The notes beneath the pieces were generated by a model. That model saw only the letters and a list, made by a program, of their open reading frames with translations. It had not been told where the DNA came from and ran no database searches. Positions 37,939 through 60,244 of a DNA stretch of 64,000 nt are shown here, in pieces. The stretch spans positions 19,450-83,449 of the forward strand of contig CAMDKK010000010.1 in NCBI GenBank assembly GCA_945901045.1, written 5' to 3'. The stretch comes from Limnohabitans sp. Rim8 (lineage in GTDB: Bacteria; Pseudomonadota; Gammaproteobacteria; Burkholderiales; Burkholderiaceae_C). The translations under genes and the position numbers were made by a program. Positions within the stretch are counted from its first letter, which is position 1. Each line of letters begins with the position of its first letter.

Positions 37939-38286
37939 TGTTGGATCTCCTTTTCGGGGCAGTCTACAGCAACTCTGACGGGGAACTGACAGGGAAAACG
38001 TGAGGTCTCTCAGAGCGGTATTTGATGGGCATTTGCCGATTGAAGCCCAGTTTGATGTCCGGTCTTCATGCTTTGTTCAGCCCATGGGCTACGGCTTCGA
38101 ACAGAGCCGCGTTGATGGGTCTTATAGGCCATCGGCAGCGGCATGTGCAATGGGCAGTTTTTGCGTGGCTTCACGTTGAACGCGTCAGACAATGAAAGCG
38201 CATTAACCGTTTGGCTGATCACCCTGCTGAAGCATTTGCCCATGCAATGTTCTAAGATCCGTGTTACCCAAACGCCCCCGTTGCCC
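37939..38286. other. Intergenic stretch before caspase-FGE gene
   Basis: About 350 bases between divergent fadD and the caspase-FGE gene. It must contain both promoters, but no convincing boxes were assigned. An in-frame extension of the caspase gene reaches back to an ATG at 38143, but its 48 extra residues precede a good signal peptide and are probably untranslated. A short leftward frame here has a weak integrase-like stretch, which I do not accept as a gene. Confidence 0.4.
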
Positions 38287-39975
38287 ATGTTCCACCGTTG
38301 GCTTTTCTTTTTGTTGATCGTTTTCAGTAGCGCCAGCTTCGCCCAGCCCAAAGAAAACCGGGTGGCGCTGGTTGTGGGCAACAGCGCCTACAAATCGGCC
38401 CCCTTGCGCAACCCCACCAATGACGCCCAGGACATGGCCGTCAAGCTCAAAGGCATGGGCTTCACGGTCATTGAGCGCAGCAACCTGACCGTCAAACAAA
38501 TCGGCAGTACCCTGCGCGAGTTCCGCTCCAAGCTCACGCCGGGCAGCGTAGCGCTGGTGTTTTATGCTGGGCACGGGGTGCAGATCAAAGGCGAGAACTA
38601 CCTGCCTGCGGTGGACGCAGACATCAGCAGTGAAGAAGACGTGCCCACCCAAAGTCTGGCCATGCGCCAGATCATGGACGTGCTGGGTGATGCCAAGACA
38701 CGGCTGAACCTGGTGTTTTTGGACGCTTGCCGCAACAACCCCTACGCCCGCAGCTTCCGGTCGGCGTCGTATGGTTTGAATCGGGTCAATGCACCCTCAG
38801 GGACTTTGATCTCTTTTGCCACCCGCCCCGGGAGCGTGGCGGCCGATGGCACGGAGCGCAATGGCCTTTACACAGGCGCCCTGTTGGCGCAAATGAACAA
38901 CCCTCACCAGCCGATTGAGCAGATTCTCAAGAAGGTGGTCAGCCAAGTCAAAGCCGGCTCCAACAGCCAGCAAGAGCCATGGATGGAGGGCAGCATTGAG
39001 GGTGAGTTTTGTTTTGGGGAATGCGGCAAGCAAATGGCGCAAAGTGGCGTGAGTGATGACCGCGCACTTTGGGATTCGGTCAAAGAAAGCCGAGATGCCA
39101 ATGAAGTCAGGGCTTATTTAGAGCGGTTCCCGCGTGGATTGTTCTCAGGTGTTGCACGCGCAAGGGTGGCGGCCTTGGACAAAGCGGAACCTCAAATGGC
39201 CATGGCCAGGCCACCGCAAACCTCTGCACCCACACCCACACCACCGTCGTCTGCCTTCAAGGTGGGCAGCGTTTTCAAGGACTGCGAGGACTGCCCTGAG
39301 ATGGTGGTTATTCCCGCTGGGACTTTCTGGATGGGTTCTAAAGCAAACCCCATTGCGGCAACGCAGCCCAGTCATGATGAGCAGCCTCAACACGCTGTGT
39401 CCATCCGGTCTTTTGCTTTGGGCAAGTTGGAAGTCACGCAAGAACAGTGGTACGCAATGATGGGTAACTTGCCCAGCAACTTCAAAGGTCGCACCTTGCC
39501 TGTGGAGCAGGTCTCTTGGCATGATGCACAAGAATTTATCAGGCGGTTGAACGCCAAGTCGGGTCAGAATTACAGACTACCCTCTGAGGCCGAATGGGAA
39601 TATGCCGCCAGAGCAGGCAGCCCAGCAAACTATTCATTTGGCGATGACCCTAAGCAGTTGGGTCGGTTTGCTTGGTTTGCCGGTAACTCGGGCAATATGA
39701 CACAGCCTGTTGGCGAGAAAATGGCCAACAATTTTGGCTTATATGACATGCACGGGAATGTCTGGGAGTGGACGCAGGATTGTTGGAATGACAACTATGC
39801 TGGCGCACCGGCAGACGGCAGTGCCTGGACTACAGGGGACTGTTCCACACGGGTTGCGCGGGGCGGTTCTTGGTTCGTCAATCCGCAAGACTTGCGTGTC
39901 ACGAACCGCGGCAGATACGCATCTGCTTTCCGGCTCTTAAGCAGCGTCGGCTTGCGTGTTGCCAGAACGCTTTGA
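38287..39975 (+). CDS. Exported caspase (C14) fused to FGE-sulfatase domain
   Basis: A 562-residue protein with three parts. An export signal (FHRWLFFLLIVFSSASFAQ) comes first. Then a caspase-like p20 region with the dyad His96 (FYAGHGVQ) and Cys148 (LDACRNNPY), running to about 250. After a region with a WDSVKESRDANEVRAYLERF motif and a Pro-rich linker, an FGE-sulfatase/SUMF1-type domain runs from about 335 to the end (CPEMVVIPAGTFWMGS, LPSEAEWEYAARAG, GNVWEWTQDCW, RVARGGSW). This is an orthocaspase with a C-type-lectin-like FGE module; formylglycine-generating activity is doubtful and a binding role is plausible. The start at 38287 is chosen for the signal peptide. Confidence 0.88.
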   Translation: MFHRWLFFLLIVFSSASFAQPKENRVALVVGNSAYKSAPLRNPTNDAQDMAVKLKGMGFTVIERSNLTVKQIGSTLREFRSKLTPGSVALVFYAGHGVQIKGENYLPAVDADISSEEDVPTQSLAMRQIMDVLGDAKTRLNLVFLDACRNNPYARSFRSASYGLNRVNAPSGTLISFATRPGSVAADGTERNGLYTGALLAQMNNPHQPIEQILKKVVSQVKAGSNSQQEPWMEGSIEGEFCFGECGKQMAQSGVSDDRALWDSVKESRDANEVRAYLERFPRGLFSGVARARVAALDKAEPQMAMARPPQTSAPTPTPPSSAFKVGSVFKDCEDCPEMVVIPAGTFWMGSKANPIAATQPSHDEQPQHAVSIRSFALGKLEVTQEQWYAMMGNLPSNFKGRTLPVEQVSWHDAQEFIRRLNAKSGQNYRLPSEAEWEYAARAGSPANYSFGDDPKQLGRFAWFAGNSGNMTQPVGEKMANNFGLYDMHGNVWEWTQDCWNDNYAGAPADGSAWTTGDCSTRVARGGSWFVNPQDLRVTNRGRYASAFRLLSSVGLRVARTL

Positions 39976-52311: not shown

Positions 52312-53298
52312 TTAATCTGGCTTGATCTGCGCACGTTTGACAATGTCACTCCATATGCGCTGTTCGTTCTTGATGAAATTGGCGAAGTCACTCGAAGGCC
52401 CGCCGCCGCCCACCGCGTTGTCGGTGGCAAACCGCTCGGTCACCGCGCTCGAGCGCAGGGCTTTGTAAGACTCTTCTTGCAAGCGTTTAACGATCTCAGG
52501 CGGGGTGCCCGCAGGCGTCAAAATGCCGTACCACTGAGCGGTTTCAAAATCCTTGAAACCCAACTCGGCAATGGTGGGGACATCGGGCAAGGCCGCAATG
52601 CGCTGGGTGGTGCCCACGGCGATGGCCCGCAATTTACCCGCCCTAATGTGCGCCCCCAACGCCGGCATGCCGGCAGACGACGCTTGCGTGCGACCGGCCA
52701 ACAAGTCGGTCAATTGCGGACCGGTGCCCCGGTAAGGAATGTGCGTGATGTACATGCCCGTGACCAGCTTGAGGTATTCCATCGCCAGATGGCCCGCACT
52801 CGCGTTGCCTGCCGAGCCGTAGTTCAGTTGACCTGGGTTCTTTTTGGCATAGTCCACAAACTCCTTGAAATTTTTAGCGGGCACGTCGGGATGAATCACA
52901 AACACGTTGGGGACTTTGGCCAACAAGGTCACCGGCATGAAGTCTTTGTTCACATCGTAAGGCTGGTTCTTCAGCATGTAGGGGTTGACCGCCAAAGTGC
53001 CCACATGGCCCAGGATGATGGTGTGCCCATCCGGCGCGGCCTTGGCCACGTCCTGCATGGCCGTGACGCCTGCACCACCGGGTTTGTTTTCGACATACAC
53101 GCTGACGCCCAATTGCTTGGTCAACTCGGCGGCCACAGAGCGAGCGACGATCTCGCTGGTCCCGCCGGGTGCAAAAGGGACTACAAAACGAATGGCTTTG
53201 GAAGGCCAAGTGACATCGGCATGGGCCAGCCCCATGAGAAAGCAGCCCCACAAGGCCATCCCCGCGATGAGCGTGTGGCGACGTATTAAAAAATTCAT
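52312..53298 (-). CDS. Bug-family (TctC) binding protein, tcu operon
   Basis: A 328-residue periplasmic solute receptor. After a signal peptide ending near GLAHA come IRFVVPFAPGGTSEIVAR, ENKPGGAGVTAMQ and HIPYRGTGPQLTDLLAG, the family marks. ATG 53298 has AGGAG 8 bases upstream. It ends 10 bases before the tcuA start and so is co-transcribed with it; this suggests a ligand linked to the TcuA substrate, perhaps tricarballylate, citrate or aconitate. No TctAB permease is present in the window. Confidence 0.9.
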   Translation of the reverse strand: MNFLIRRHTLIAGMALWGCFLMGLAHADVTWPSKAIRFVVPFAPGGTSEIVARSVAAELTKQLGVSVYVENKPGGAGVTAMQDVAKAAPDGHTIILGHVGTLAVNPYMLKNQPYDVNKDFMPVTLLAKVPNVFVIHPDVPAKNFKEFVDYAKKNPGQLNYGSAGNASAGHLAMEYLKLVTGMYITHIPYRGTGPQLTDLLAGRTQASSAGMPALGAHIRAGKLRAIAVGTTQRIAALPDVPTIAELGFKDFETAQWYGILTPAGTPPEIVKRLQEESYKALRSSAVTERFATDNAVGGGGPSSDFANFIKNEQRIWSDIVKRAQIKPD

Positions 53299-53347
53299 GC
53301 AGTGACTCCTAAAGTCGAAGCCCACAGTGTGGGGTTTAGAAAATTTT

Positions 53348-54103
53348 TTAGAATTGGTATTTACGCAAGCCACCATCGACCGGAATCACTGCGCCGGTGA
53401 TGTAGCTGGCCAAGGGTGAGGCCAAAAAGCTCACCAGGTTGGCCATGTCTTCGGGCTCACCGTAGCGGCCCATTGGGATTTCATTTTCGCACTGCCACTG
53501 ACGGTATTCCGGCGTGTAGTTGCGAAAGATTTGCTCCGAGTGAATGCGCCCGGGTGGTACGCAATTGACCGTGATGCCGTGCGGCCCAACCATGCGCGAA
53601 AGGCCTTTGGCCCAGCTGTGCAGGCCCGCCTTGGCACAAAACGCACCGTTGGTGTGCTCGGGCTCGCTCTTGCCGGTGATGTTGATGATGCGACCCCATC
53701 GGTTTGCGATCATCTGATCGATCAAAGCGTCGGCCACTTGGCGCGGGCGATGAAAGTTAAGCGTGATGGCTTCTTGCCAAGCCTCTTCGCTCACATGCAA
53801 ATTCTTGAAACTGCGCGAACCGCCGGCGTTGTTGACCAGAATGTCCACCCGGCCCAAACCGGCCATGGCTGCGGCTGCCAGCTTTTGTGCGGCATCCTCG
53901 GGGTACAAGTCCGACTCGATGATGATGGGGCGGTGGCCGCCAGCGGCCACAATTTCATTCGCCAGTTCTTCCAGTTTGTCGACGCGACGGGCGGACACAG
54001 CCAAACGCACGCCTTCGGCGGCCAAGGCCTTGGCAATGCCGCGCCCAATGCCCACGCTGGCACCTGTCACGAGCGCTGTTTTGTTATTGAGTTGCAGGTC
54101 CAT
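53348..54103 (-). CDS. SDR-family protein lacking the catalytic tyrosine
   Basis: A 251-residue short-chain dehydrogenase fold. TGASVGIG at 13-20 and NNAGG at 91-95 are intact, as are NITGKSEPEH and the C-terminal DGG. The YxxxK motif reads AFCAK: Lys158 is kept but the tyrosine position is Ala154. Thus the normal proton-transfer triad is broken, and the protein may use another mechanism or act as a non-catalytic partner. It heads the tcu operon (49 bases before the Bug gene) and is divergent from the caspase gene. ATG 54103 is chosen. Confidence 0.85.
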   Translation of the reverse strand: MDLQLNNKTALVTGASVGIGRGIAKALAAEGVRLAVSARRVDKLEELANEIVAAGGHRPIIIESDLYPEDAAQKLAAAAMAGLGRVDILVNNAGGSRSFKNLHVSEEAWQEAITLNFHRPRQVADALIDQMIANRWGRIINITGKSEPEHTNGAFCAKAGLHSWAKGLSRMVGPHGITVNCVPPGRIHSEQIFRNYTPEYRQWQCENEIPMGRYGEPEDMANLVSFLASPLASYITGAVIPVDGGLRKYQF

Positions 54104-54203
54104 ACAGGTCAGGTCTCCTTCAAAAAATGACATTCCAAATCATCTCATGCCTTCAAGGCCATTTATTACTAGAATCTCAGATCAAAGGTCATTTGGAGTT
54201 TCT

Positions 54204-55859
54204 ATGTCGTGGGTGAAATTGCTGGCTGGATTTGCCCTTTGCGCCAACCTGCCCTGGGCCTTGGCGCAAAACAATGCCAGTCAACGCACGGCGCTGATTG
54301 TGGGCATTGGCCAATACGGTTCGCCCGACATCCCCTCACTCAGCGGCGTGGTGCATGACTTCGACAGCGCGCGCAAAATGGCTTTGGCCATGGGCATCGA
54401 CGAAAAAAACATCACCGTGCTGCGCGACGCTGCAGCCACCAAGGCCAATATCCTGAGTCAATTCAAACGACTGAGCGACATCACACCCGAAGGCGCCCGT
54501 GCCTTCATTTACTTTTCGGGACACGGCACCCGCTGGCAAGATCCGCAAGCCGGTGGTTGCGTTGAAGGTTTACTTACCTACGATGGCCAGACTTTGACCC
54601 ACAAAGAAATTGCCCAGGCGACCGATAAGCTCAGTCAAAAGGCAGATAAAGTCATTGCCCTGTTTGACGCCTGCCATTCGGGCGGCGTCACCAATGCAGG
54701 GACGCGGAGTATGACTGCACCCCTGAGTGCGCCCCTTTTTGCACCCAAATTTTTCCTCAAAGCGGGCGCGGGGCAAGACATGTGCAGTCAACCCTCCAAC
54801 ATGGTCTCGCGCAGCCTCTTCGGTGAGGCCACCCGACTCAATGCACTGGCCGAAAACTTTGTGCAGATCACTTCTTCAAGGCCCGATGAAGTGAGTTTCG
54901 ACGAGCCCGGCAAAGGCGGATTGGCCACGCAAGGCATTCGCGACTGCCTGCTGGGTAAGGCCAAAGACCTGGACGGATCGGGTGCAGTGTCGATGACCGA
55001 AATTCAAATCTGCGCACAAAACACCATCAATGCCAAGTTGAAAAACGTGGCCGGTCTGACGCCACACCATGTCTCTGTGCGGGGTGCACGCAACTTGATT
55101 CCTGTGGCCGTGGTAAAGCCTCCGCCAGAACCCGAAAAACCCGTTGCGATTTCCTTGGCACTCGTGGCCCCGGCCGCGACCCCATTCACACCTGCACCCG
55201 CACCCTTACCCGCGCTCTCACCGGTCAAGCCTGCACCTTCGGCACAGCCCCCCAAACCGACTGCGCTCAAGCCACCGCCAGCGCCACCCGCACCGGTGGT
55301 CGCATGGGTGGACGAACCCCTGGAGGAGCCCCGCATGACCGAGACGGACGCGACACCTTGGTCGGTCTCGGTGGCCACTTTACGCGATGTAGAGCAGCAA
55401 AAAAATCCACGCCGCAAGCTGGATGTTCAACTGAGCAAAAGCAGGCTTCAAATTGGCAAAGATACACTGGACCTGAGCATTAAATCCAGTCACGACGGCT
55501 ATGTCTACCTGGTCTTACTTGGCAGTGATGCGCAGAGTTTCTATGTGCTGTTCCCCAACGGTTTGGACAAAGCCAACCGGATCAAAGCCAACCAGACACT
55601 GCGCCTGCCCAAACCCGATTGGCAAGTCAAAGCCGCCGGTCCCGCAGGCACTGATCAGCTTTTGGTCATCGTCTCTGACACGCCGCGCCAGATGGACAGT
55701 TTGACCTTGGCCGAGCCCACCAGCGCTGCCCCTTTTACCTACTCACTCAACAATTTGCAAGGCCGCACGGCCTTGATCCGGTATTTAACGGGTGCCAACA
55801 CCCGCGCCCGCTCTGAAAGCTTTGGCGCCAAGCTCTTGAGCATCCAAGAGGTCTTATGA
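54204..55859 (+). CDS. Exported caspase (C14) with DUF4384 domain
   Basis: A 551-residue protein. The signal peptide ends near LPWALAQ. The caspase p20 region has its dyad at His107 (YFSGHGTRW) and Cys157 (FDACHSGG), the canonical metacaspase/orthocaspase sequences. A loop at 255-266 (DLDGSGAVSMTE) fits the EF-hand calcium-binding pattern D-x-D-x-S-G-x-V-x-x-x-E. A long Pro/Ala-rich linker (about 295-375) joins it to a C-terminal DUF4384 domain (about 412-500; GYVYLVLLGSD, LFPNGLDKANRI, LLVIVSDTPR). ATG 54204 has GGAG upstream. The stop overlaps the OmpA-like start as ATGA. Confidence 0.9.
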   Translation: MSWVKLLAGFALCANLPWALAQNNASQRTALIVGIGQYGSPDIPSLSGVVHDFDSARKMALAMGIDEKNITVLRDAAATKANILSQFKRLSDITPEGARAFIYFSGHGTRWQDPQAGGCVEGLLTYDGQTLTHKEIAQATDKLSQKADKVIALFDACHSGGVTNAGTRSMTAPLSAPLFAPKFFLKAGAGQDMCSQPSNMVSRSLFGEATRLNALAENFVQITSSRPDEVSFDEPGKGGLATQGIRDCLLGKAKDLDGSGAVSMTEIQICAQNTINAKLKNVAGLTPHHVSVRGARNLIPVAVVKPPPEPEKPVAISLALVAPAATPFTPAPAPLPALSPVKPAPSAQPPKPTALKPPPAPPAPVVAWVDEPLEEPRMTETDATPWSVSVATLRDVEQQKNPRRKLDVQLSKSRLQIGKDTLDLSIKSSHDGYVYLVLLGSDAQSFYVLFPNGLDKANRIKANQTLRLPKPDWQVKAAGPAGTDQLLVIVSDTPRQMDSLTLAEPTSAAPFTYSLNNLQGRTALIRYLTGANTRARSESFGAKLLSIQEVL

Positions 55860-56371
55860 GTAACCCCGCTTTATGGGCCAGCGTCATGATCTTTGCAAGC
55901 TTGCATCTGTCTTTGCTTGCACAGCCACTGAGCAAGGCCTCGGTGGCTGACATCGAGCAACAACTGGCCCCCAACGCACCCAACGCACCCAAGACTCGCA
56001 GCTTGAATGGCACGCGCAATTTGGTGCCTGAAGTGCGCAGCATCGATCTGGTGATTCAGTTCGATCTGGGCTCTGCTAAATTGCAAGAAGACAGCAAACC
56101 GCTGCTCGACAAACTGGCGCAGGCCATGAAAGGCGAGCGGCTGAAAGAGATGAAGTTCAAGATTGAAGGCCACACCGATGCCAAAGGCAGCGCCAGTTTC
56201 AACGACAAGTTGTCGCTTGAGCGTGCCCAAACGGTGGTGAAATTCATTCATGACAAGCAAATCACACCCGAACGCCTGGTGGCAGAAGGCAAAGGCTTTC
56301 GCGAATTGCTGATGCCCGACAAGCCGCAAGCGATGGAAAATCGGCGCGTGCGCATCACCACACTCCCATGA
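55856..56371 (+). CDS. OmpA-family peptidoglycan-binding protein
   Basis: A 171-residue exported protein. An N-terminal hydrophobic signal (ASVMIFASLHLSLLAQ) is followed by a short linker with NAPNAP repeats and an OmpA C-terminal-type domain (about 62-171). Peptidoglycan-binding residues are in IEGHTDAKGSASFNDKLSLERA. It lacks the OmpA beta-barrel and a lipobox, so it is likely periplasmic and tied to the cell wall. The 4-base overlap with the caspase gene indicates tight coupling. Confidence 0.88.
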   Translation: MSNPALWASVMIFASLHLSLLAQPLSKASVADIEQQLAPNAPNAPKTRSLNGTRNLVPEVRSIDLVIQFDLGSAKLQEDSKPLLDKLAQAMKGERLKEMKFKIEGHTDAKGSASFNDKLSLERAQTVVKFIHDKQITPERLVAEGKGFRELLMPDKPQAMENRRVRITTLP

Positions 56372-56375
56372 AAGC

Positions 56376-56825
56376 ATGAACATGAAAATTGGACTCTGGG
56401 TTGCTCTGGCACTGACTTGCGGCGCAGCCTGCGCGCAAAACGCCTATTTGGTCACCCCTGCTGAAATGCAAGCCTCCATCGCCGCACCGCCCAGACTGAG
56501 CGCCAAAGCCGCAACCGTCAAAGACGCACCGGCCATCCAGGTGACAGCGCCGACGCTGACCGGACCCGTCAAATCACCCACACCCATCAGTGTGAAATTC
56601 CAGTCCACAGCGCCCAGCGCGATCAAACCTGAAAGTTTCAGGGTTCTGTATGGCAGCTTTGAAATCGACATCACCAAACGCTTGCTGAACGTGGCCAAAG
56701 TCACCGAGCAAGGCATGCAAGTCAGCGAAGCGAGCCTGCCCAATGGCAAACACAAACTGCTTCTGGAAGTCGAAGACACAGCGGGCCGCAAAGCCAGCAA
56801 GTTGCTTGAATTTGAGGTGAATTGA
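56376..56825 (+). CDS. Exported Ig-like protein of unknown function
   Basis: A 149-residue protein with a signal peptide (LWVALALTCGAACAQ) and a mature part of about 130 residues rich in Ala, Pro, Thr and Val. From about residue 60 the pattern (SPTPISVKFQS, FRVLYGSFEIDITKRLL, GKHKLLLEVEDTAGRKAS) resembles a bacterial Ig-like or cadherin-like beta-sandwich. I do not recognise a named family. It starts 4 bases after the OmpA-like stop and completes a three-gene operon. ATG 56382 is an alternative start. Confidence 0.75.
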   Translation: MNMKIGLWVALALTCGAACAQNAYLVTPAEMQASIAAPPRLSAKAATVKDAPAIQVTAPTLTGPVKSPTPISVKFQSTAPSAIKPESFRVLYGSFEIDITKRLLNVAKVTEQGMQVSEASLPNGKHKLLLEVEDTAGRKASKLLEFEVN

Positions 56826-56826
56826 A

Positions 56827-57819
56827 ATGACAAACATGCTCCCTGTTTCTCGTCGCCAGTGGATCACCTGCGCCTTCGCTGCAGGTGCACCCGCCCTGGC
56901 AGGTCTTGCGCTGGCGCAGGACGCGACTTACCCGTCTAAGCCGATCCAGCTTATCCACGGATTCGGTGCTGGCGGCAATGCCGATGTGGTCGCCCGACTG
57001 GTCGGACAACGCCTGCAGACACTGCTCAAGCAGCCCGTGGTGATCGACATCAAGAGCGGCGCGGGCGGCAGCATTGCCACCAACTTTGTGGCCAAGGCCA
57101 AGCCCGATGGTTACAGCCTCGTCATGCTGACGGGGGCGCACACCGTGTCGGCCGCGCTCACGCGCTCGCTGCCTTATGACCCGGTCAAGGACTTTGCCTT
57201 CATCTCCACCGTCTCATCCTTCCCGTTCGTGGTGGCCGTGCGCGCGGAACATCCAGCCAAGACACTGGCCGATCTGATGGCCATGGCCCGCCAAGAACCC
57301 GGCAAGATCACCTTCACCTCGGTGGGTGTGGGGTCGACTCAGCACATGGTCGGTGAGTTGCTGGGCGCCAGTGCCGGTGTGAAGCTGCTGCACGTGCCTT
57401 ACCGAGGTGGCGGCGCGCCGGTGCAGTCGGTACTGGCTGGCGATGTCGACATCTTGGCCGACACGCTCACGGTGGCCACGGCGCACATCCGCTCAGGCCG
57501 TCTCAGGGCCTTGGGTGTCACCAGTGCCCAGGCCTGGCCGAGCTTGCCCGGCGTGCTGCCGGTCGCAGCCGCCTTGCCAGGATTTGAAGTCCTGTCCTGG
57601 TTGGGGCTGGCAGCGCCAGCAGGAACACCCGAGGCCGTCGTCAGGTTGCTCAATACTGAAACCCGTCGCGCTCTGCAGGACCCGGACCTGCTCAAGACTC
57701 TGGCAGACTTGGGCAGCCAGGCCGCACCGAACAGCTCGCTTGAAATGCGCAACACGGTCGAGCAAGACATCGTGCGCTGGCGCGGTGTCGTCGACAAAGC
57801 CGGCATTGTGCGGCAGTAG
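56827..57819 (+). CDS. Bug-family (TctC) binding protein
   Basis: A 330-residue periplasmic receptor with a Tat-like N-terminus (SRRQW, then a hydrophobic run to about GLALAQ) and the family motifs IQLIHGFGAGGNADVVAR, KSGAGGSIA and HVPYRGGGAPVQSVLAG. The ATG is one base after the stop of the Ig-like gene, so transcription from the caspase operon could run into it. It more probably belongs with the enoyl-CoA hydratase and following genes by function. Confidence 0.9.
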   Translation: MTNMLPVSRRQWITCAFAAGAPALAGLALAQDATYPSKPIQLIHGFGAGGNADVVARLVGQRLQTLLKQPVVIDIKSGAGGSIATNFVAKAKPDGYSLVMLTGAHTVSAALTRSLPYDPVKDFAFISTVSSFPFVVAVRAEHPAKTLADLMAMARQEPGKITFTSVGVGSTQHMVGELLGASAGVKLLHVPYRGGGAPVQSVLAGDVDILADTLTVATAHIRSGRLRALGVTSAQAWPSLPGVLPVAAALPGFEVLSWLGLAAPAGTPEAVVRLLNTETRRALQDPDLLKTLADLGSQAAPNSSLEMRNTVEQDIVRWRGVVDKAGIVRQ

Positions 57820-59275: not shown

Positions 59276-60244
59276 ATGCATGCAAATCGTCGTCAAACCC
59301 TGGCCATGCTGACCGGTCTGGGCGTCGGGCACGCCTGGGCGCAAGCGGGCTATCCGAACAAGCCGGTGCGCGTGGTCATTGGTTTTCCGGCGGGAACCAC
59401 CGGCGATGTGGTGATGCGGATCTTGGCGCCCTTGCTGGGCGATGTGATGGGGCAAGCCGTGATCGTTGAAAACAGGCCTGGCGCGGGCAGCAGCATTGCA
59501 GCCGAGGCCATAGCGCGTGCACGGCCCGATGGCTACACGCTCTTGCTCAGCACCACGGCGAACGTCATCAACCCCAGTTTGTACCCGGGTTTGAGCTTTG
59601 ACTTTCTGCGCGATCTCACGCCTGTGACGATGCTGGGCGAAGCGCCTGCGCTGCTGGTCGGGCACCCCAGCTTGAATGCCAAGTCACTTACCGAACTCGT
59701 GGCACTGGCCAAGACCCGGCCAGACAGCATGAGTTTTGCCTCCTCTGGCAATGGCACCTTCACCCATCTTTATGGCGAACTGTTCAACCAAACCCAAGGG
59801 GTTCGCTTGACCCATATTCCCTACAAAGGCAGCTCGCAAGCACTGACCGACTTGTTGGCCGGTCGCGTCTCTCTGCTGTTCTCTCCGGCATCCACCGTGA
59901 TGGCGCATGTAAAGGCAGGTACCCTCAAGGCCTTCGGGCTGATCGGTCGACAGCGCTTGGCGGCATTGCCCGATGTCCCATCATTTGCCGAAGTCGGCAT
60001 CGCCGATTTCGAGTCTGCGCTCTGGTTTGGCCTGAATGCCCCGGCAGGTACGCCAGCCGATATCGTCGAGCGCCTTGGAAAGGACCTGGCCACGGTTCTG
60101 GCCAGGCCCGATGTGCGTGCACAACTGACCGCGCAAAGTTTCAACACGCTGCCCGGTGGTGTCGCCCCGTTTGCCGATCTGCTGAGCAAAGAGACCGGCA
60201 AATGGAGCCGTATCGTCAAGGCCGCCAACATCAAACCCGACTGA
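59276..60244 (+). CDS. Bug-family (TctC) binding protein
   Basis: A 322-residue periplasmic receptor with a short signal peptide (to about GHAWAQ) and the motifs VRVVIGFPAGTTGDVVMR, ENRPGAGSSIAAEA and HIPYKGSSQALTDLLAG. It lies between the VOC gene (61-base gap) and the alpha/beta hydrolase gene (9-base gap). It is the second Bug receptor within 3.5 kb and the fourth in the window. Confidence 0.9.
   Translation: MHANRRQTLAMLTGLGVGHAWAQAGYPNKPVRVVIGFPAGTTGDVVMRILAPLLGDVMGQAVIVENRPGAGSSIAAEAIARARPDGYTLLLSTTANVINPSLYPGLSFDFLRDLTPVTMLGEAPALLVGHPSLNAKSLTELVALAKTRPDSMSFASSGNGTFTHLYGELFNQTQGVRLTHIPYKGSSQALTDLLAGRVSLLFSPASTVMAHVKAGTLKAFGLIGRQRLAALPDVPSFAEVGIADFESALWFGLNAPAGTPADIVERLGKDLATVLARPDVRAQLTAQSFNTLPGGVAPFADLLSKETGKWSRIVKAANIKPD

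Follow-up and report, generated by a model that had tools for sequence, protein, structure and literature searches.

The 64,000-nucleotide stretch of Limnohabitans sp. Rim8 analysed here (contig CAMDKK010000010.1; hereafter the window) carries a tight operon of three genes that forms a conserved set. It encodes a caspase-family protease with a C-terminal DUF4384 domain, an OmpA-type peptidoglycan-binding protein that lacks a beta-barrel, and a small immunoglobulin-like (Ig-like) protein. We propose, with a probability of roughly 0.55, that the products act as an exported, calcium-armed and wall-tethered Arg/Lys protease that uses a shared Ig-like adaptor and conditionally cleaves envelope proteins. 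The evidence for the gene set is strong; the export of its products is a reading of the sequence. A preliminary description of this DNA had already envisaged a periplasmic protease complex positioned on the cell wall by the OmpA-type protein, with the Ig-like protein as substrate, inhibitor or adaptor. The co-occurrence of the genes and the wall-binding residues give this interpretation partial support, whereas a role of the Ig-like protein as substrate or inhibitor fits the data less well.

Conservation of the operon

The coordinates, common strand and close spacing of the genes were borne out (Table 1): the first two genes overlap by 4 bases, a 4-base gap precedes the third, and all are on the + strand. 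The caspase matches Peptidase_C14 (PF00656; E-value 4.4e-17, 63 bits for a gathering threshold of 21.4) and DUF4384 (PF14326; 2e-16, 60.3 bits for a threshold of 27), and its His107/Cys157 dyad is intact, as had been described. The second protein, correctly described as a peptidoglycan-binding protein without a barrel, matches OmpA (PF00691; 5.2e-17, 62.4 bits for a threshold of 27.2). The third gene is present, but its label as Ig-like is weak, since its only Pfam match is to Big_13 (PF19077; 0.0012, 19.7 bits) and falls under the gathering threshold of 27. All three N-termini read by eye as signal peptides without a lipobox, which agrees with the export signals assigned to them before.

We searched 90 genomes of the same genus with a caspase profile and detected the caspase in 30 of them, including 22 of the 56 more complete ones. 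Of these 30 carriers, 27 have the OmpA and Ig genes next to the caspase, so that the co-occurrence in relatives expected from the preliminary description was found. The order is that of the window in 22 genomes, one of which has the set across two contigs (G833), another an Ig gene cut by a contig end (G844), and two a gap of about 220-240 bases before the Ig gene (G026 and G800). Five carriers have the order OmpA-CHASE2-caspase-Ig, followed by CHAT-TPR genes (G004, G015, G017, G806, G809). In G024, the caspase and OmpA genes are followed by the contig end, and in G016, the contig is cut at the caspase. Ratios of nonsynonymous to synonymous substitution rates (dN/dS) of the three genes against two relatives range from 0.05 to 0.23, with a high dS (0.95-2.1) for the more distant one. 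Because the set recurs in relatives and these ratios are low, the operon is unlikely to be a chance arrangement. Two public relatives of the locus, both from Comamonadaceae (a family of Burkholderiales), show 91% and 82% identity in the best segment. A search of plasmids returned 21 records, none of which covers 80% of the query; five of the 21 were examined.

Catalytic residues, extra cysteines and a putative calcium-binding loop

The caspase alignment has 36 rows representing 35 genes, one gene being split over two contigs; L051 and L052 are duplicates of L124 and L031 and were left out of the counts. The catalytic dyad is invariant, and so are two aspartates, Asp52 and Asp155, that align with Asp positions of Metacaspase-4 and Metacaspase-9 in the printed alignments. 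They were equated with Asp95 and Asp211 of TbMC2 by motif, not by an alignment to MCA2; the role of this aspartate pair in the metacaspase S1 pocket is stated in a passage of PMC6426788. The predicted pocket is acidic, as in the Arg/Lys-specific orthocaspases and metacaspases. As for the p10 domain, which orthocaspases lack, the PF00656 match extends to profile position 198 of 233, and the AF2 model is poor.

The enzyme has four non-catalytic cysteines that are nearly always kept (Table 1), as expected of an exported caspase and in line with the earlier view of the enzyme. Domains of the partner-type caspases described below contain a single cysteine in 24 of 26 cases. Cys248 and Cys270 flank a 12-residue EF-hand-type loop, DLDGSGAVSMTE, whose key positions are conserved throughout the alignment. 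The strict loop pattern is rare in the background: it occurs twice in 336,928 amino acids of other open reading frames (ORFs) of more than 100 residues, a set that includes many spurious frames, and 16 of 20,000 shuffled versions of the caspase protein contain it. Loop fragments from Azospirillum match Pfam EF-hand_5 with E-values of 0.0004 and 0.02, both under the cut-off. A search of the PDB with the loop fragment of the window gave 7 matches, none significant (best 0.14), among them calcium binding protein 2, calmodulin and EPS15. The conserved loop and the four cysteines are consistent with an enzyme that calcium and disulfides would arm once it is exported.

The OmpA-type partner and the cell wall

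Searched by sequence against known structures, the OmpA-type protein resembles those of Pal, OprF and YfiB, among others. Its Asp108 and Arg123, present in all 32 distinct genes, were equated by motif with the two diaminopimelate-binding residues of Acinetobacter baumannii OmpA (given in a passage of PMC5974059). Wall binding by this protein, as the preliminary description had it, is supported by these residues, and the caspase is probably held to the wall through it. The link between DUF4384 and OmpA recurs elsewhere. One protein of G885 contains both domains, and its frame overlaps a downstream caspase gene that bears the EF-type loop. An Azospirillum plasmid carries two caspase-DUF4384 genes that both encode the loop; the first of the pair overlaps an OmpA gene. 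Among the variant loci described below, M23-like domains of partner caspases (one match above and one under the cut-off) and an SH3_3-like N-terminus in one clade (under the cut-off) also point to the wall. Across the phylum, a profile search found DUF4384 in 32 of 299 genomes, at 46 places. We examined 29 of these loci, chosen mostly for their long reading frames, and found an OmpA-domain gene, with our own profile, near 12 of them.

An Ig-like family shared by caspases and CHAT proteases

The Ig-like protein is a member of a family overlooked by Pfam: a match at an E-value of 0.01 was obtained for only 2 of the 27 members aligned. Residues invariant in these 27 include Tyr92, Asp98, Arg102, Pro122, Gly124, His126, Asp134 and Arg138. 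Searches for the family found it in 13 of 399 genomes of the order (15 places) and in 3 of 369 genomes of the class, the window genome included. Loci retrieved with the caspase are biased towards linkage, so only the Ig-search loci, 15 outside the window genome and G013, bear on the association with proteases; the Ig profiles themselves were built from linked members. At 13 of these 15 loci, a C14 or CHAT gene is no more than 2.3 kb from the Ig gene. Because the family accompanies CHAT proteases and other caspases as well, the Ig-like protein is more likely to be an adaptor or a sensor than a substrate or inhibitor of this one caspase. The preliminary description had left all of these roles but that of sensor open; we judge the substrate and inhibitor roles less likely.

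Variant loci and other caspases

The genes found around the operon differ between relatives. In one clade, an Ig paralogue and a zinc-ribbon-like membrane protein lie before the caspase and next to a second caspase gene that is transcribed divergently; the zinc-ribbon-like cysteine pattern was seen by eye (Pfam 0.0041, under the cut-off). In another, two partner caspases have M23-like domains (2.3e-17 in one and 1.2e-4, under the cut-off, in the other) and are accompanied by a small lipoprotein-like gene. The third variant is the CHASE2/CHAT form, whose caspase has an SH3_3-like N-terminus (25.2 bits, under the cut-off of 27). Four genomes of another family (L035, L083-L085) have the order Ig, zinc-ribbon-like protein, second caspase, caspase and OmpA. 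The window genome has this second type of caspase elsewhere, on contig C41 (L057:5280-7685), where it resembles the module-linked ones of relatives, also outside the caspase domain. It has four C14 places in total, and one CHAT gene besides a weak CHAT match on the C41 caspase.

Some further arrangements were observed along the way. The zinc-ribbon-like family occurs beside a second Ig subfamily (L032:10491-11321, L081:9387-10175 and others), and the partner caspases with M23-like domains (L034:6692-9673 and L034:1492-3507) look catalytically degenerate by eye. The second caspase gene of the window (38143-39975) encodes a fusion with an FGE-sulfatase domain. On contig C117 of the same genome (L058:379-2826), a caspase is fused to lytic transglycosylase (SLT) and FGE-sulfatase domains, and is thus another caspase joined to a wall-acting part. 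A genome from outside the order has a row of caspase-DUF4384, subtilase, Ig-like and caspase-FGE genes (L134:4914-11038). A Deinococcus plasmid has a caspase-DUF4384 gene, without the strict loop, followed by hypothetical, S-layer-homology and PKD (Ig-fold) genes (L139:3902-8708).

Proposed mechanism and its alternatives

We propose that all three proteins are exported and that the caspase would be inactive in the low-calcium, reducing cytoplasm. Once in the periplasm, it would form two disulfides and load calcium in the EF-hand-type loop, becoming an Arg/Lys-specific protease. The DUF4384 tail would dock on the OmpA-type partner, through which the complex would be held on the wall. A docking or sensing adaptor is the role proposed for the Ig-like protein, because members of its family are found with caspases as well as with CHAT proteases. 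The module would probably serve to cleave envelope proteins conditionally, upon envelope disturbance, with an outcome that could be repair, the processing of surface proteins or self-destruction. Of these steps, the tethering, the disulfide formation, the calcium loading and gating, and the role of the adaptor are inferred.

Several observations weigh against this proposal. Export was judged by eye and, for the N-termini of relatives rather than of the window proteins, by a crude hydrophobicity script that flagged many but not all of them. The AF2 models (rows: window, L051 and L052) are poor, with mean pLDDT values of 34.9 and 43.5, and provide no usable structure. The loop fragment of the window scores under the cut-off with Pfam EF-hand_5 (E 0.13), and a lone loop of this type can be purely structural. 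Outside the orthologues, the strict loop is absent from six of eight other caspases (one each of Deinococcus, Sulfitobacter, Rhizobium and Tolypothrix, and two of G627, of which one departs from the pattern at a single position) and present only in two of Azospirillum; in the phylum set, it is found in 5 and absent in 8 of 13 C14-scoring ORFs. The profile search did not detect the caspase in 60 of the 90 genomes of the genus, and in G820, the caspase has neither an OmpA nor an Ig partner within 16 kb. Only 5 of the 12 DUF4384 loci with an OmpA gene also have a caspase match, with profiles that were trained on the lineage of the window and may miss distant caspases, and at L047 and L048, the neighbour of OmpA is a DUF4384-type protein without the caspase dyad by motif patterns; OmpA may therefore track DUF4384 no less than the caspase. 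No protease was detected at two of the 15 Ig loci, L079 and L135. At the former, the neighbouring gene is cut by the contig end, and its fragment shares 78% identity with the beginning of the L080 CHAT-TPR protein; at the latter, the Ig gene adjoins that of a DUF4384 protein.

A first alternative, which we find rather unlikely, is that the loop and the cysteines merely stabilise the fold and that the caspase is constitutive, or activated by cleavage, with no calcium gate. The weak Pfam score of the loop and the non-orthologous caspases without it would be expected in this case. Periplasmic calcium tracks that of the medium, which would keep the site loaded. Yet the loop positions are conserved in 35 of 35 genes. 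Calcium dependence also has a precedent, at a different site, in the eukaryotic type III metacaspases, where it involves an Asp of p10 (a passage of PMC6426788).

It is improbable, in our view, that the operon is dedicated to envelope self-destruction or defence against phages, the tethered caspase cleaving envelope proteins on infection or damage and killing the cell, a role that would extend to the further caspases and CHAT proteases of relatives. The patchy distribution in the genus (30 of 90 genomes; 22 of the 56 more complete ones) and the protease, CHASE2 and membrane partners that differ between clades would suit such a device, as would the match to the PADLOC caspase model (1e-20), but this model seems to describe caspases in general. 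The three operon proteins, which are those scanned, match only this model and ZorB/MotB (matches of the OmpA-type protein, best 1.5e-10), and do not make up a known anti-phage gene set. The neighbours of the operon look metabolic or TctC-type by eye, no scan of the surroundings for defence genes having been made, and the whole-gene dN/dS against two relatives is low.

The low dN/dS and the invariant catalytic residues are what one would expect of a housekeeping protease that processes extracytoplasmic proteins, trimming or releasing surface proteins or scavenging protein, the OmpA-type and Ig-like proteins serving as its scaffold. A speculation that betaproteobacterial metacaspases degrade extracellular protein, in a passage of PMC4933709, goes in the same direction. 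The caspase, however, went undetected in 60 of 90 genomes of the genus and is therefore dispensable there, and its partners in relatives are of several kinds and look more signalling-like; we give this explanation a similarly low chance. That the three genes are mere neighbours with no functional link, as the one genome of the genus with the caspase alone might suggest, is very improbable given a set kept in 27 of 30 carriers, five of them in another order, and a DUF4384-OmpA fusion elsewhere.

If the calcium-armed, wall-tethered protease proposed here is taken as an instance of a wider phenomenon, one may tentatively envisage a general extracytoplasmic caspase/CHAT signalling platform of bacteria, made up of exported clan CD proteases that calcium and disulfides arm only once the membrane is crossed, that are held on peptidoglycan and that are recruited by small Ig-like adaptors from a dedicated family common to caspases and CHAT proteases. 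We regard this generalisation as possible but doubtful.

Other features of the locus

A promoter scan of positions 53900-57100 found no sigma-70-like site. The gene that follows the Ig-like one starts at 56827 and is, by eye, that of a TctC-type binding protein; in the relative G008 (L052), a different gene follows, on the opposite strand. In all, three genes that look TctC-type by eye surround the operon (52312-53376, 56827-57819 and 59276-60244).

Table 1. Features of the caspase operon, in positions of the window.
Feature	Position	Strand	Evidence
GGAG, ribosome-binding-site-like, upstream of the caspase start	54195..54198	+	sequence reading
Caspase-family protease gene, C-terminal DUF4384, 551 aa	54204..55859	+	ORF, Pfam
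Caspase predicted signal peptide, residues 1-21 (ALA|Q)	54204..54266	+	sequence reading
Asp52, predicted acidic S1-pocket residue	54357..54359	+	35/35 covering rows
Catalytic His107	54522..54524	+	35/35 covering rows
Cys119, non-catalytic	54558..54560	+	35/35 covering rows
Asp155, second predicted acidic S1-pocket residue	54666..54668	+	35/35 covering rows
Catalytic Cys157	54672..54674	+	35/35 covering rows
Cys194, non-catalytic	54783..54785	+	34/35 covering rows
Cys248, non-catalytic, before the EF-type loop	54945..54947	+	36/36 rows
EF-hand-type loop DLDGSGAVSMTE, residues 255-266, 12 residues	54966..55001	+	key positions in 36/36 rows (35 genes)
Cys270, non-catalytic, after the EF-type loop	55011..55013	+	36/36 rows
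Pro/Ala-rich linker, length varies among relatives	55107..55358	+	alignment
DUF4384 domain	55452..55685	+	PF14326, 2e-16
Barrel-less OmpA-type peptidoglycan-binding protein, 171 aa	55856..56371	+	ORF, Pfam, structure-database sequence matches
OmpA-type protein predicted signal peptide, residues 1-22 (LLA|Q), no lipobox seen	55856..55921	+	sequence reading
Asp108, diaminopimelate-contact position, OmpA-type protein	56177..56179	+	32/32 distinct genes
Arg123, diaminopimelate-contact position, OmpA-type protein	56222..56224	+	32/32 distinct genes
Small exported Ig-like protein, 149 aa, family without above-cut-off Pfam model	56376..56825	+	ORF, Pfam, family alignment
Ig-like protein predicted signal peptide, residues 1-20 (ACA|Q)	56376..56435	+	sequence reading

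Comparison with known systems

Parts of this arrangement are already known. Passages of PMC8283722 list DUF4384 with 23 cyanobacterial orthocaspases, and passages of PMC6426788 list it with a clade of alphaproteobacterial pseudo-orthocaspases. Orthocaspases and bacterial metacaspases with DUF4384 share with the caspase of the window the caspase domain, the His/Cys dyad and the acidic S1 pocket; as far as the passages on the listed proteins go, the window caspase differs from them by its signal peptide, EF-type loop, four extra cysteines and operon with OmpA-type and Ig-like genes. The presence of OmpA domains in metacaspase operons has been known since a 2012 survey, passages of which report 14 such operons (PMC3501461) and make no mention of an Ig-like partner, a calcium loop or a tethering model; DUF4384 does not occur in its main text. 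In archaeal orthocaspases, EF-hand motifs were listed in 7 proteins and the Ig-like Big_7 motif in 15 (passages of PMC6426788). The Ig-like family, the loop of the enzyme and the tethering model were not found in the literature, in the available passages of the matches listed, mostly from non-subscription sources. What appears new is the EF-type loop in all 35 caspase genes together with the four nearly always kept cysteines, the Pfam-missed Ig-like family that adjoins caspase or CHAT proteases at 13 of 15 loci, and the fusion of DUF4384 to an OmpA domain.

By sequence, the solved structures closest to the caspase are those of the eukaryotic Metacaspase-4, Metacaspase-9 and MCA2. The S1-pocket aspartates of the first two align with those of the window caspase, but these enzymes have no DUF4384, operon or comparable signal peptide. 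The calcium sites of eukaryotic metacaspases also differ from an EF-type loop. The OmpA-type protein has the peptidoglycan-binding fold and the diaminopimelate-contact Asp and Arg of the family of Pal, the C-terminal domain of OmpA, YfiB and PA0833, from which it is distinguished by the lack of a beta-barrel, a lipobox that was not seen, and a caspase as operon partner. The CHAT-TPR proteins with signal peptides are other clan CD proteases encoded beside the same Ig-like family, in one clade within the same operon plus CHASE2; the operon of the window, unlike these loci, has neither CHAT nor CHASE2.

For a conserved, exported and wall-linked caspase that carries a calcium-type loop, the site of action and the possible switch of its activity can be predicted precisely. 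The operon is small and suited to transfer into a laboratory strain. Members of the Ig-like family may serve as markers in the search for related exported modules with caspase or CHAT proteases, and because the family occurs with both protease types, the question of the adaptor is directly testable. The contrast with cytoplasmic caspase defence systems, drawn in the preliminary description, is fair as to the predicted location, and a general platform of the kind envisaged above would, if true, be the periplasmic counterpart of adaptor-driven caspase activation.

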